A stretch of DNA of 64,000 bases from positions 62,001-126,000 of the forward strand of contig DWXK01000006.1 of assembly GCA_019119205.1 (NCBI GenBank), given 5' to 3'. Of this stretch, positions 3,055 through 52,705 are shown piece by piece. The stretch comes from Candidatus Mediterraneibacter intestinavium (lineage in GTDB: Bacteria; Bacillota; Clostridia; Lachnospirales; Lachnospiraceae). Below the pieces are notes generated by a model. The model was not told where the DNA came from. It ran no database searches and worked only from the letters and a program-made list of their open reading frames with translations. Each line of letters opens with the position of its first letter. The first letter of the stretch is position 1. The position numbers were made by a program, and so were the translations under genes.

Positions 3055-4330
3055 AAAGGGCTGGCGAAGGAATGCCGTTCTCTTCCTCGTCAGCCAGAGT
3101 ATTACTTTATTCGGCTCCACACTGGTCCAGATGGCAGTGGTCTGGTATGTGACGCTCTCCACTTCCTCGGGCGCCTGGACCGCGGCATTTTCCATCTGTT
3201 CCTACCTGCCCCAGTTTCTCATCTCCATCCCGGGCGGCGTGTGGGCGGACCGATTTTCCCGAAAACGGCTCATCATATCTTCCGATCTGTTCACCGCGCT
3301 TATCACCCTTGCCATGATCGTTCTCATGCCTTACCTTTCAACTGAGCCGTCACTTCTCTCCGGGCTTCTCCTCATGTCTGTACTGCGCTCTCTCTGCGCG
3401 GGGATCCAGACTCCGGCAGTAAACGCCGCGCTCCCGCAGCTTGTTCCTGCCGGTCAGCTCCAGCGTTTTAACGGCATCAATGCGGCGTTTCAGTCTTTCG
3501 TTCAGTTCGCTGCTCCTGCCGCCGCGGGAGCCGTCCTCTCCTTCGGGACACTTCGCATGACGCTGCTGATCGATATATTTACAGCCATTCCCGGGATCAT
3601 CCTGCTGTCGGCAGTCCCCCTTTCCGGAGAACACCCCGGGGAACTTTCTGCAGAATCCTCCGGGAACCTTTCCGGCAGATCATCCGGGCTTTCCCGCAGA
3701 TCATCCGGGCTTTCCCGCAGAGGCAGTCAGAGATTTTCTTCTGCTCTGAAAACAGGGCTTTCCTATGCATTTTCCCACAGCCCTGTCCGCAGACTCCTGA
3801 TCCTATACGGCCTCTTCGTCTTTCTCTGTGTCCCGGCAGGCTTCCTCTCCGGGCTGCTGGTCAGCCGCGCCTACGGCAGTTCTTACGGTTATCTGACCGC
3901 TGCCGAACTTGCTGGATTTGCCGGGATGACAGCCGGCGGCGCTCTCATGGGCACGTGGGGCGGGTTTTCCAGAAAGGAGAAGACACTTTCCGCCGGACTG
4001 GTTCTGTTCGGCGCCATGACAGTCCTCATGGGGACAACGCCGGACTTCCCCCTCTACCTGGTATTCATGCTGGTTTACGGGATTGCCCTGACTGCGGTCC
4101 AGACCACCATCACCACACTCCTCCAGGAATGTACGGACGCCTCCGTCCGGGGACGGGTCTTCGGGATGCTGGGATCCATGTACTCGGGCTTCCTTCCTCT
4201 GGGCATGGCAGTCTTCGGTCCGCTCTCAGATCAGATGCCCCTCCAGTGGATCATGACAGCTTCCGGCATTTTCCTGATATGCACAGGACTCCGAGTCAGA
4301 GTTTCACGATCTTCGGTTCATGTCCCATAG
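3011..4330 (+). CDS. Major facilitator superfamily transporter
   Basis: The track starts this ORF at 2933, but GGAGG at 2999-3003 points to TTG at 3011, giving 439 residues and a 44-base overlap with the AraC-GNAT gene. The first helix follows at NAVLFLVSQSITLFGSTLVQ. The profile is that of EntS/Mef-like drug or siderophore exporters with about 12 helices. The central cytoplasmic loop is unusual: a Ser/Gly/Arg-rich stretch built from a tandem 21-bp repeat. Its stop lies 35 bases inside the convergent ybaK-type gene. It probably exports a toxic compound or metabolite; the substrate is not readable. Confidence 0.85.
   Translation: MNILSVLNKLNAEHKKGWRRNAVLFLVSQSITLFGSTLVQMAVVWYVTLSTSSGAWTAAFSICSYLPQFLISIPGGVWADRFSRKRLIISSDLFTALITLAMIVLMPYLSTEPSLLSGLLLMSVLRSLCAGIQTPAVNAALPQLVPAGQLQRFNGINAAFQSFVQFAAPAAAGAVLSFGTLRMTLLIDIFTAIPGIILLSAVPLSGEHPGELSAESSGNLSGRSSGLSRRSSGLSRRGSQRFSSALKTGLSYAFSHSPVRRLLILYGLFVFLCVPAGFLSGLLVSRAYGSSYGYLTAAELAGFAGMTAGGALMGTWGGFSRKEKTLSAGLVLFGAMTVLMGTTPDFPLYLVFMLVYGIALTAVQTTITTLLQECTDASVRGRVFGMLGSMYSGFLPLGMAVFGPLSDQMPLQWIMTASGIFLICTGLRVRVSRSSVHVP
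3675..3721 (+). repeat. Tandem 21-bp in-frame repeat in the MFS loop
   Basis: Two perfect 21-base copies (3675-3695 and 3696-3716) and the first bases of a third. Each encodes seven residues of the SGLSRRS type, so copy-number changes would keep the frame. The preceding SSGNLSGRSS segment is a diverged version of the same unit. Confidence 0.9.
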
Positions 4331-4847
4331 CGGGAATGATCTTTTCCACCAGGTCCTTTGTCTGGATCTTCAGGCTGGATGTGTTGATGCAGGGGTGACA
4401 TCCGAACCATTCATCCTTCAGCACATCCTCGTCGATCAGAAGCTGCACTTTGTTCTCGTGATCGTTCATCAGCCCCATAATGCTCACCGATCCCGGTGTG
4501 ATGTCCAGATATCTCTCCATATACTCCGGCTTGGCAAAGGACAAGCGGGAGGAGCCAATCTGGGCAGACAGATATTTTGTCTTAAAGGGCTTGTCCCCCG
4601 GGATCAGGAGCAGATAAAAATCTGTCTCCTGCCGGTTGCAGAGGAACAGGTTCTTACAGATCGCCACGCCTTTTTCCTCCCCTTCGCTCAGTGTCCTGTC
4701 AATCTCCTCACACGCTTCCATGGTCATGGCGGCTTCGTGGTCGATCCGCTGATATTTTACTCCCAGAGAATCAAGCAGGTCATACACCCGGATCTCCTTT
4801 TCCAGGCGGCCTTCCTCATTCTCCGGTCTTCCGTTTACTAATTCCAT
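4296..4847 (-). CDS. YbaK/ProX-type aminoacyl-tRNA deacylase
   Basis: A 183-residue single-domain protein, read from the ATG at 4847 (MELVNGRP) behind AAGGAG; the track uses an upstream ATG. Family features are VAICKNLFLCNRQ, the FYLLLIPGDKPFKTK Lys-containing segment, the STTxSA-like LSAQIGSSRLSFA, and GSVSIMGLMND. The homologous Clostridium ProX removes alanine wrongly attached to proline tRNA. The gene is convergent with the MFS gene, and their 3' ends overlap by 35 bases. It lies downstream of the 188-nt palindromic element, in the same direction as the ABC-class ATPase gene. Confidence 0.9.
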   Translation of the reverse strand: MELVNGRPENEEGRLEKEIRVYDLLDSLGVKYQRIDHEAAMTMEACEEIDRTLSEGEEKGVAICKNLFLCNRQETDFYLLLIPGDKPFKTKYLSAQIGSSRLSFAKPEYMERYLDITPGSVSIMGLMNDHENKVQLLIDEDVLKDEWFGCHPCINTSSLKIQTKDLVEKIIPAMGHEPKIVKL

Positions 4848-4872
4848 CGTTTCTGTATCTCCTTTTTTATCG

Positions 4873-5060
4873 CAGTTCACACCTAACCGCCGCCCGCATG
4901 CGCACTCGTCGCGCTGACGCGCTCCAGTCCCGCACTACGTGCTAAGACTGCTTATGAGGGGCGGCGGTTACGAGTTCCACTCGCACTCAGGAACAGGGAA
5001 ATGCCTCTTACATGCAAGCATGACGCTGCATTTCCCTGTTCCTGAGCACAGTGTGAACTG
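4873..5060. repeat. Multi-branched palindromic element, possibly a structured RNA or MITE-like repeat
   Basis: A 188-base intergenic element bounded by a perfect 10-bp inverted repeat (CAGTTCACAC 4873-4882, GTGTGAACTG 5051-5060). Inside are a perfect 12-bp stem (4884-4895 with 4959-4970), a small hairpin CGAGT-TCC-ACTCG (4971-4983), and a perfect 19-bp stem (4986-5004 with 5028-5046) whose loop holds CATGC-AA-GCATG. The first arm contains further hairpins such as GCAC-TAC-GTGC. It encodes no protein. The perfect pairing at every level points to selection on a fold or to a recently mobile palindromic repeat. It does not look like a simple terminator, because no T run follows on either side. 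Confidence 0.85.
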
Positions 5061-5070
5061 TAACCCTTTC

Positions 5071-6777
5071 TCAGTTCAGCTTCAGTCCTCTGTACCGGTT
5101 AAAGCAGGCAAATATCTCCTGCTTCCTGGGCATCGCCATGCAGGAAATGCTGGAGCTGCTCTCACAGAGCGCCGAGAGAGTGCCTTTGTCCATTGCCTTT
5201 TCCAGTTCTTCCACCACCTGCCGCAGGTCTTTTCTTCCATCCAGGATGTGTTTCTGAGCATACCGCATACAATATCCAAGCGCCGTCACCTGCTCGCTGT
5301 CTGTGATCTGCTCCACATATCTTAAGTCAATGGTCTCTTTGTTGATCATCACGCCTTCTTTGGAAAGGGTCTTCATCTTGATGCGGTCATTTCCCTTGAA
5401 CGCCGGGCTGGGTTTCGGGCAGCGCTTAAAGTCCGGCTGTTCCGCTGTCTCTTCCGGACCCGTGATCACGGGGTAGCTCTCCGCTTCTTTCTTGGCATAT
5501 GCAGTGATGTCCTTCGGCACATACCGGTCCATCTGGATGATCGTGTCCGCGATGTGGAAATATGCTCCTGAGCTTCCCGCCACGATGATCGTGGAGATGC
5601 CATACTCATCGTACAGTTCCCGGATCCGCTCGATAAACGGAGTGATGGGCTCCATATCCCTGTGGATGACCCTCTGCATCAGCTCGTCCCGGATCATGAA
5701 GTTTGTCGCGCTGGTATCCTCGTCGATCAGCAGAAGAGACGAGCCTGCCTCAATGCTCTCCACCACGTTCGCTGCTTGGGAGGTACTCCCGCTGGCGTCC
5801 TCGGTACAGAATCTCACCGTGTCCTTGCCGTTGGGAAGGTCGTTGATGAACATGGAGATATCTGTCTTCTGGATGCTCCTCCCGTCCTCGGCACGGATCT
5901 TCATCGCCGTATCGTCCGTGATCACATACTCTCTCCCGTCTCCCGCGATATGGTCATAGACGCCCAGTTCCAGCGCTTTCAGAAGAGTGGATTTCCCGTG
6001 GTATCCGCCTCCCACGATAAGGGTGATCCCTTTTTTGATCCCCATGCCCGTGATCTTTCCTCTGTGGGGCAGTTCCATGGTCACCTTCAGTTCTTCCGGC
6101 GAGCGGAACTTCACGCCTCCCTTCATCGGTCTTGGGGAGATCCCGGACTCTCTCGGCAGGATGCTGCCATCCGCCACAAAAGCACACAGTCCCATCTTGG
6201 GCAGCATCTCGCGGATATAGTGCTGGTCTTCCGCCAGGTCGATGATGGCGCGCAGGCGCTTCGCGTCCATATTTTTATAGAACAGGGCATGTTTCACACA
6301 CTCCGGCACGAAATCGAAAAGGATCTTTTCCAGTTCCCTGGCGTTTATGGTCCTGCCATTTGCCGGGAAACCGATCTCCATCCGGAGCACCACGTCGCCC
6401 GTTGCCGGATCGATCCGACATGCAGTCCGCTCCAGCACTTCCTGACAGCACCGGCTGACCGAGATCAGCCCGCTCTTTCCCGAGCCCTTCGCCTTGAAAG
6501 CAAACTGCTCCGCTCTCCTGCCGAACTGTCGCGTCAGCTCGTCCTGCAGGGCGATCCGCTGATGCGCATCCTGATACAGCTCCTGCGGAAACGCCGCTGT
6601 CTTCCCCTTTACGTGCACGCTCACCTTCGATGGCGATGCGAAAGGATCCCCCTGTACATGGTCGATGGACAGTACATATCCCGGGAACTGGTACATTCCC
6701 CTTGTATCTTTATAAGCAGGATAACCGCGGTGGTCGATCCTGTTCAGTAAACTCCTGAGTTCTGTTGATGTCTGCAT
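5071..6777 (-). CDS. ABC-class P-loop ATPase (COG3044-type)
   Basis: 568 residues, the usual length of the predicted ATPase-of-the-ABC-class family. The Walker A loop is VGGGYHGKSTLL near residue 262, and Walker B is SSLLLIDEDTSATNF near 350. The N-terminal half is the family-specific region. No membrane segments or signal peptide are visible, so it is a soluble protein and not part of a transporter. The biochemical role of the family is not established. It stands alone here, with the palindromic element directly downstream and the L,D-transpeptidase gene 111 bases upstream. Confidence 0.85.
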   Translation of the reverse strand: MQTSTELRSLLNRIDHRGYPAYKDTRGMYQFPGYVLSIDHVQGDPFASPSKVSVHVKGKTAAFPQELYQDAHQRIALQDELTRQFGRRAEQFAFKAKGSGKSGLISVSRCCQEVLERTACRIDPATGDVVLRMEIGFPANGRTINARELEKILFDFVPECVKHALFYKNMDAKRLRAIIDLAEDQHYIREMLPKMGLCAFVADGSILPRESGISPRPMKGGVKFRSPEELKVTMELPHRGKITGMGIKKGITLIVGGGYHGKSTLLKALELGVYDHIAGDGREYVITDDTAMKIRAEDGRSIQKTDISMFINDLPNGKDTVRFCTEDASGSTSQAANVVESIEAGSSLLLIDEDTSATNFMIRDELMQRVIHRDMEPITPFIERIRELYDEYGISTIIVAGSSGAYFHIADTIIQMDRYVPKDITAYAKKEAESYPVITGPEETAEQPDFKRCPKPSPAFKGNDRIKMKTLSKEGVMINKETIDLRYVEQITDSEQVTALGYCMRYAQKHILDGRKDLRQVVEELEKAMDKGTLSALCESSSSISCMAMPRKQEIFACFNRYRGLKLN

Positions 6778-51192: not shown

Positions 51193-52212
51193 TCAAATGG
51201 CAATGCTGTCCCGGTATTCTTTCGGCGTTTTACCAAGAGTTGCTTTAAACAGCCGGGTAAAATAATTTACATCTGAGATCCCGCAGTGCTGCGCGATAGT
51301 CTGGACCTGAAGCCGGGTGGAGTTCAGGAGAAAGACAGCCTGTTCGATCCGTTTCCCGTTTACATATTCTGTCAGTGTCTTCCCCGTCTCTTTTTTAAAC
51401 AGAGTTGACAGATAACTGGCATTGACTCCAAACTCTGCCGCCTGCGCTTTCAAGCTCAGGTCCGCAGTCAGATCCATATCGATCTGAGTCAGGACTTTTC
51501 TCACCAGAAGCGAATAGTCTTTCATAGAATGATTTGTCACAAGGAGACAGTATTTTCTCACCATTTCCTTTGCCAGAAGGCTCATCCCTTTCTCTGAGTT
51601 GAGCTGCTCGATCTTATGCGCAAACCTGGAAGAAAGTTCATCGATATGGATAGGATGCACATCCGCGCTCTCCACCGCTTTTCGCAGGAGTGTGTTCATG
51701 ATGATCAGATAGTTCTTCACATTTCTCAGCCGGTCCGGCGTCCGAAGCTCCAGCCAGTGCCCTGATCCGCTCAGAAGAGCCTCCGCCCTGTGGGTCTGCC
51801 CCTTTGCCACAGCCTGGATCAGACGGTTCTCCACCTCATACCGCTCTGCCAGTATCTGCATCATCTGCTGGGACTCCCCTTCTCCTCCGTCTTCTCTGCT
51901 GCCTGCTTCCGCTTCAACATCCAGGGAGATCCCGCTGTTTATATCCTGCAGTTCAAAGTTATCTATGCTTCCCCATATCCTCTCCCCGAATGTATTTACC
52001 ATGGAAAGGAGCACGCTTTCATCGTAGATCCGCGGCAGTCCGACGAAGAACTGTTCCAGCCGGCGGTAGTGCTTTTCCGGAAATGACAGATACTCCGCCA
52101 CATCATAGATCATCTTTTTCGTCACCTCTGTCAGCATGTACGGACCGATCAGGAAAAGATCCTGTCCTTTTCTTCCCGGTTCCGGCAGCCGGAACAGAAG
52201 GTATCGGTACAT
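51193..52212 (-). pseudogene. AraC-family regulator truncated at its 5' end
   Basis: The C-terminal 340 codons are a normal AraC regulator: sensor-domain residues (GQDLFLIGPYMLTEVTKKMI), a middle helical region, and an intact double HTH at the end (LKAQAAEFGVNASYLSTLFK; IAQHCGISDVNYFTRLFKAT). The expected first 60-100 residues are missing. Upstream of MYRYLLFRLPEPG the frame runs antisense through the XRE-type gene and encodes only Pro/Ser-rich nonsense. No ribosome site lies before ATG 52212. It may be inactive, or may make a shortened protein with working DNA-binding domains. Confidence 0.75.
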
Positions 52213-52215
52213 GCA

Positions 52216-52705
52216 CGCCGAACTGATCCTTCTTGAAGACCTGTTCCACATATCCATAGATGAACTCGTAGGCCGTGAGACAGCAGATACAGGCGCAGAG
52301 CCAGAGTCCGGGCTTCTCGCCCTGGGCGGGATCGCATCCGGCATCTTTTCCCTGGGCGGGATTTCCGCGGGTCTCTTCTCTTTTGGCGGACTGTCCGCGG
52401 GGCTTCTGCTTTCCGTCGGCGGATTCTCCGTGGGAACTGTCGCCATCGGCGGACTGGCTCTCGGGATCTTTGCCATTGGTGGCGGCGCCTTCGGAGTCTA
52501 TGCCCTGGGCGGAGCGGCAGTGGCGCAGAAGATCGCCGCAGGCGGAGCCGCGCAGGCAGCCATTGCCATTGGAGACGCAGCGAACGGCGAGATCGCCATC
52601 GACATAAATAATCCCGTCCCGCCATCTGTGATCCGGGACATCATCCTGGAAAAGTTTCCGGGGACATGGGATATCATCGTAGAAATCTTCTCTCATACCG
52701 TATAG
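52216..52705 (+). pseudogene. XRE-type regulator with Gly/Ala-rich membrane-like repeats, 5' truncated
   Basis: The genuine protein begins at ILLEDLFHISIDELVG, the last helix of a Cro/CI-type HTH domain; the rest of the HTH is gone. Then come about nine short Gly-rich repeats of the form (L/V)GGxAxGxFxxGG (SGLLALGGIASGIFSLGGIS, then LSAGLLLSVGGFSVG), then a short tail to FSHTV. The upstream part of the track ORF (from 52136) is antisense to the AraC gene. Truncated at the same junction as that gene, head to head. Intact relatives in Lachnospiraceae, as far as I recall, carry a complete N-terminal HTH. Confidence 0.7.

Follow-up and report, generated by a model that had tools for sequence, protein, structure and literature searches.

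What is the element at positions 4873-5060 of the window, the 64,000-nucleotide stretch of DNA analysed here? The sequence-only reading described a perfectly paired, multi-branched element of 188 nt and took it to be either a structured RNA or a non-autonomous palindromic mobile repeat. Each option is partly borne out, while the either/or is not, since both hold: scattered copies with target-site duplications and compensatory changes among relatives were both found, and the element is therefore a mobile repeat with a conserved single-strand structure. We put at about three in four the probability that it is a MITE-type non-autonomous transposon of ~196 bp, moved in trans by a transposase and carrying a conserved single-strand fold that is probably RNA.

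The minimum free energy (MFE) of 4873-5060 is -98.9 kcal/mol, compared with -57.9 ± 4.3 for dinucleotide shuffles (z = -9.5; none of 200 shuffles as good), so that the claim of pairing far beyond chance stands, and the strongest-folding 188-nt tile of the whole window lies within the element. The second-strongest fold of the window belongs to an ORF at 52136-52705 (plus strand) with a glycine-rich repeated motif (LGGIASGIFSLGGISAGLFSFGG...), and is a by-product of that coding repeat. The coordinates and pairings first proposed were all confirmed, namely a 10-bp closing stem (CAGTTCACAC/GTGTGAACTG), a perfect 12-bp stem (UAACCGCCGCCC/GGGCGGCGGUUA) enclosing two small hairpins, a 13-base hairpin (CGAGTTCCACTCG) and a perfect 19-bp stem (CTCAGGAACAGGGAAATGC/GCATTTCCCTGTTCCTGAG). 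An ORF check found no plausible gene inside 4873-5060, and no terminator-like site (a GC-rich hairpin followed by a T-run) was found at the element, in agreement with its description as non-coding and unlike a terminator. Only the extent had to be revised: the ends of other full copies (GTTAC...GTAAC) place the true unit at 4869-5064 (196 bp), each end lying 4 nt outside the one first given. The minus strand of the window copy folds more strongly than the plus strand (MFE -109.3), and is taken as the structured-RNA sense.

The left terminal inverted repeat, ATCGCAGTTCACACC (4869-4883, plus strand), corresponds to the family consensus GTTACAGTTCACACC, with its outermost 4 nt degenerate in this copy, and the right one, AGTGTGAACTGTAAC (5050-5064, minus strand), was located by comparison with other copies. 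All internal parts are read on the minus strand. The multi-branched domain P4 (4884-4970) comprises the 12-bp outer stem, inner CAU/AUG and GCA/UGC pairs, and two hairpins, P4b (GCGCTGACGCGC, 4911-4922), in which other subfamilies replace the sequence and keep the pairing, and P4a (GCACTACGTGC, 4932-4942); it rests on the fold and on covariation in the outer stem and both hairpins. The 13-base hairpin is P3 (4971-4983), which is likewise supported by fold and covariation. The long hairpin P2 (4986-5046) consists of the 19-bp stem and an apical motif, GCGUCAUGCUUGCAUGUAAG on the minus strand, that is common to the Rfam family Clostridiales-1 (RF01699).

The window copy is one of a dispersed family. 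Its own genome (2.6 Mb, 104 contigs) contains four full copies of 93-100% identity and ~20 partial ones; matches were obtained in 20 of 61 genomes, all except one from the window's genus, and of 58 genomes from that genus, 37 contain the terminal repeat. When the genomes of 84,980 species were scanned for a pattern derived from the conserved domain, 101 stretches matched, and the 80 of them that were listed are all Lachnospiraceae or Eubacteriales entries. Copies occur in at least four named Lachnospiraceae groups (Mediterraneibacter, Merdimonas, Lachnoclostridium and Candidatus Blautia), with Merdisoma and others also among the listed matches. Searches of phage, plasmid and viral-contig sequences gave no matches to the element. 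Orientation to the neighbouring genes was scored for 73 copies and shows no preference (24/20/18/11). Literature searches on Lachnospiraceae or Mediterraneibacter MITEs and on structured bacterial MITEs returned nothing relevant, and no account of window-family elements in gut Lachnospiraceae was found. We also noticed two unusual arrangements: in one genome (G159) two copies, L302 and L304, have both hairpins of the two-hairpin domain unlike the usual form, and many RF01699 copies are found at other loci of this genome; and in a genome from another family of the same order (G057, contig C1), locus L048 carries at ~1235-1690 a tandem array of ~130-bp units, each with the apical motif GCGTCATGCTTGCATGTAAG in a different stem.

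Comparison of the copies defines the true ends as GTTACAGTTCACACC...GGTGTGAACTGTAAC, with 15-bp terminal inverted repeats. Among 94 distinct two-ended copies, 25 have an 8-bp direct repeat without mismatch on their flanks, against 0.3 expected when flanks are re-paired, and 16 more have flanks that match at 7 of 8 positions; exact flanking repeats of any other length were absent from the 94, bar one that extends to 9. Examples of the duplicated target are GCGGGCAT, CTCTTCTT, GGGGAAGA, AACAGTTA and TTCCGGAA. Scattered copies with target-site duplications, which the sequence-only reading named as the mark of a mobile repeat, are thus present. Nearly all copies measure 193-199 bp, and minimal copies of 46-49 bp with perfect duplications also exist (GGAATAAG, TATATGCA). 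By established transposon biology, the combination of these ends with an 8-bp duplication points to an enzyme that transposes the element through cuts staggered by 8 bp, and the family shows what is expected of MITEs: short, non-coding units with terminal inverted repeats, a target duplication of fixed length and dispersed copies.

At the window locus the element is intergenic, lying between two minus-strand genes outside it, an ABC-class P-loop ATPase (PF09818, 5071-6777) upstream and an aminoacyl-tRNA editing-domain (YbaK-like, PF04073) protein (4296-4847) downstream. The left flank CCTTTTTT (4861-4868) is one copy of the 8-bp target duplication and matches the right flank CCTTTCTC (5065-5072) at 6 of 8 positions; comparison with relatives identifies the latter as a drifted copy, as the right flank reads CCTTTTTT/CCTTTTTTC in genomes G063 and G071, where the duplication is still readable as CCTTTTTT. 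The same insertion is found in four relatives (G007, G079, G063 and G071), with flanks 89-98% identical. In G007 CAGTTCACAC is the sole remainder of the element, in G079 the 3' half is missing, and in G063 and G071 the middle is missing; each deletion junction has a short repeat (ACC, AGTTC or GCC). No element was seen at the orthologous site of four further genomes (G003, G016, G006 and G023). Since the copy has decayed in relatives, it is not kept intact by selection at the window site.

Across the family, the structure itself is strongly conserved. An alignment of 97 copies that are complete or nearly so (92 distinct) has pairing in 97.0% of cells and compensated double changes at 46 of the 51 pairs. 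Its covariation score of 0.564 compares with 0.05-0.06 for structures slid by 1-3 columns; none of 500 shuffles reaches any of the covariation or pairing measures. The compensatory changes expected of an RNA are therefore found as well. A smaller set of 55 copies gives double changes in 38 of 51 pairs and a score of 0.593 against 0.05-0.07. The model to which both alignments were fitted came from 30 copies, almost all of them of Mediterraneibacter type; the first MAFFT alignment of 30 copies, made with no structure fitting, already has double changes in 27 of 51 pairs. The P2 stem, in which 17 of 17 counted pairs are compensated, is fully rewritten in other subfamilies with its apical and junction motifs nearly invariant, and the same holds generally: the loop and junction motifs CAUGCUUGCAUGUAAG, CAUAAGCA, UUAGC and GACGAGUGCGCAUG hardly vary while the stems turn over completely. 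In one full copy (L059:129-323, genome G006, contig C49) the apical segment of the long hairpin lies in the opposite orientation to that seen in every other copy, which fits recombination or template switching across the palindrome.

In 84 of 89 copies the minus strand gives the more stable fold, with a mean advantage of 8 kcal/mol. On this strand single G-U pairs exceed A-C pairs by 46:23 when distinct contexts are counted, in alignments fitted to the minus-strand model, and a small alignment-independent count gives 20:8 (p = 0.04), or 17:8 in distinct contexts (p = 0.11); two of the three predicted-helix counts use model-fitted alignments. A cruder, unrestricted count over all helices shows no bias (57:67). 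Because the unrestricted count takes in conserved internal-loop mismatches and spurious helices, we relied on those restricted to predicted helices. The strand asymmetry and the G-U excess support a single-stranded functional form of the window's minus strand, which is most likely RNA, with single-stranded DNA as the alternative.

No Rfam family matches the window element at gathering cut-offs. The minus strand gives 30.2 bits (E = 6e-5) with RF01699, below the curated gathering cut-off of 48 bits. Several Rfam microRNA families match at E of ~0.04-0.1; this generic-hairpin noise is the bar that the RF01699 match had to clear, and it lies well above it. The window family and Clostridiales-1 have in common the apical motif GCGU-CAUGCUUGCAUG-UAAGC and, in the same order, a domain of the form AUGAGCA..UAGC-hairpin-GCGGA..UUGCGAAUG; the long RF01699 hairpin with its conserved GCUUGC apical motif is present in the window element. 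Two modules are thus held in the same order and the 3' module differs: the GAUUGCGGGAG-hairpin-CGGAGCAAUC domain at the 3' side of RF01699 is missing from the window element, where it could not be aligned with good pairing and other hairpins stand in its place, and the window family, unlike Clostridiales-1, carries one hairpin more as well as a small hairpin of the GUGGAAC type. The inverted ends also differ (GTTACAGTTCACACC in the window family, TGATGYYRGGGTCAAAAG in Clostridiales-1), as does the duplication (8 bp and 5 bp, respectively). An intermediate copy, L248, scores 113 bits with the window-family model and 42 with RF01699, and L300, a true RF01699 copy, scores 38 and 66, respectively; most other RF01699 copies tried gave no significant match to the window-family model. 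From these sequence comparisons, the window element appears to be related to Clostridiales-1.

Clostridiales-1 is itself multi-copy, being found in 25 of 146 genomes of the order with at least 18 matches in one genome. Its copies in genome G167 (L129, L154 and L170-L181) have inverted ends TGATG...CATCA; in the ten that were checked, 184-196 bp lie between the ends (196 in seven), an exact 5-bp duplication flanks six, and one has a 10-bp repeat. Judged by these ends and flanks, the G167 copies look mobile too. Weinberg et al. 2010 (PMC2864571) published the family as a candidate RNA; the motif appears there in a table and is not described in the main text. A literature search found no description of Clostridiales-1 as mobile.

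How far could the locus be explained otherwise? If the element were a regulatory or non-coding RNA of the host (a cis-regulator or a small RNA gene) that is merely multi-copy, its strong covariation and invariant loops would be expected, as would the publication of the related RF01699 as a candidate RNA (PMC2864571) and the placement of the window copy, in RNA orientation, within a co-directional gene pair. Such an RNA would not bring 8-bp target duplications, however, nor does it fit with the lack of preferred orientation to neighbouring genes or with a same-locus copy of which four relatives have lost part or nearly all, with random decay seen at the orthologous window site; we consider it quite improbable. 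The absence of an orientation preference and the decay of the window insertion in relatives make regulation of the host gene at each site unlikely.

A second possibility accepts mobility and denies the structure any selected function: the element would be an inert MITE, its palindromes preserved because template switching during replication corrects quasi-palindromes. This kind of correction is known to act on long perfect palindromes, and the apical inversion in L059 together with the deletions at hairpin bases shows that the hairpins do misalign. Against this, the loop and junction motifs are nearly invariant while the stems turn over, the length is constant, and one strand is the better-folding one in 84 of 89 copies, which symmetric correction at the DNA level does not predict, so that we find this reading rather unlikely. 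Spread of a REP/BIME-type palindrome by a tyrosine transposase (HUH, RAYT) that uses single-stranded DNA as its substrate would agree with a palindromic, intergenic, multi-copy element with strand asymmetry, and recognition of single-stranded DNA would also account for the conserved structure. However, HUH chemistry (IS200/IS605 family) leaves no fixed target duplications or inverted ends of this kind, and with 8-bp duplications of fixed length and 15-bp inverted GTTAC ends in the family, this reading is very improbable indeed.

Compared by description with known elements, the window family resembles the ERIC, Correia and RUP MITEs, which are short, gene-less, intergenic and hairpin-forming, with inverted ends and a target duplication; it differs from them in that its internal structure covaries across subfamilies and its loops are invariant. 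The bcr1-bcr3 repeats of the Bacillus cereus group are likewise MITE-like and of high copy number, with intergenic positions that include UTRs and the inside of operons (PMC3446304), and bcr10 and bcr18 have conserved RNA structures (PMC3446304). By the same kind of comparison, bcr1-bcr3 differ in belonging to another host group and in having mobility linked to TTTAT motifs rather than to an 8-bp duplication (PMC6542083).

The mobilising enzyme is inferred to be a DDE-type transposase, because the duplication length is fixed. Among the end matches listed from 66 genomes, none of the paired inverted ends enclose a gene. A 3.2-kb pair of ends in the window's genome was rejected as an autonomous partner, being a chance match in a coding gene. 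Five transposase families (IS256, IS1595, ISL3, IS66 and IS6) were searched for and gave no consistent candidate; most copy-rich genomes lack them. The IS66 elements in G007 and G018 were rejected as partners as they are without window-family ends. At another locus (L309, G207:C30:21050-21500), a second MITE-like element is nested in a window-family copy; its ends, GTAACTGTTCAGAACC, with a flanking repeat matching at 7 of 8 positions, resemble those of the window family and might lead to the transposase.

For the mobile element with a conserved fold, we propose the following course. A DDE-type transposase would act in trans on the 15-bp inverted ends and generate the 8-bp target duplication. 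The minus strand, as RNA made by read-through transcription or as single-stranded DNA, would pair its inverted ends into a closing stem and form the long hairpin, the small hairpin and the two-hairpin domain. Selection would then act on the structure during propagation and not via any advantage that each insertion gives to a host gene: the fold may make insertions tolerable by processing, insulating or stabilising the transcript or, alternatively, may be recognised by the mobilising machinery. After landing, deletion between short direct repeats at hairpin bases would produce half-copies and the 46-49-bp remnants.

The structure thus seems to be kept for the spread of the element rather than for the neighbouring genes, and is more likely maintained along lineages that keep transposing; its conservation throughout the mobile family, set beside the decay of an individual insertion, points to a probable role in propagation. 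More tentatively, and with doubt prevailing, the window family and Clostridiales-1 might form a mobile superfamily of Clostridia, with at least two end types (8-bp and 5-bp), in which the structured RNA is the selected, information-bearing part and helps itself to spread; DNA transposition of these gene-less elements would then depend on RNA or be regulated by it. If the mobile-element reading is right, Clostridiales-1 and the window family would be parts of mobile elements and not ordinary RNA genes, and the covariation, copy number and function of both would have to be read differently. Elements of the window family may also serve as markers for strain comparison in gut Lachnospiraceae.
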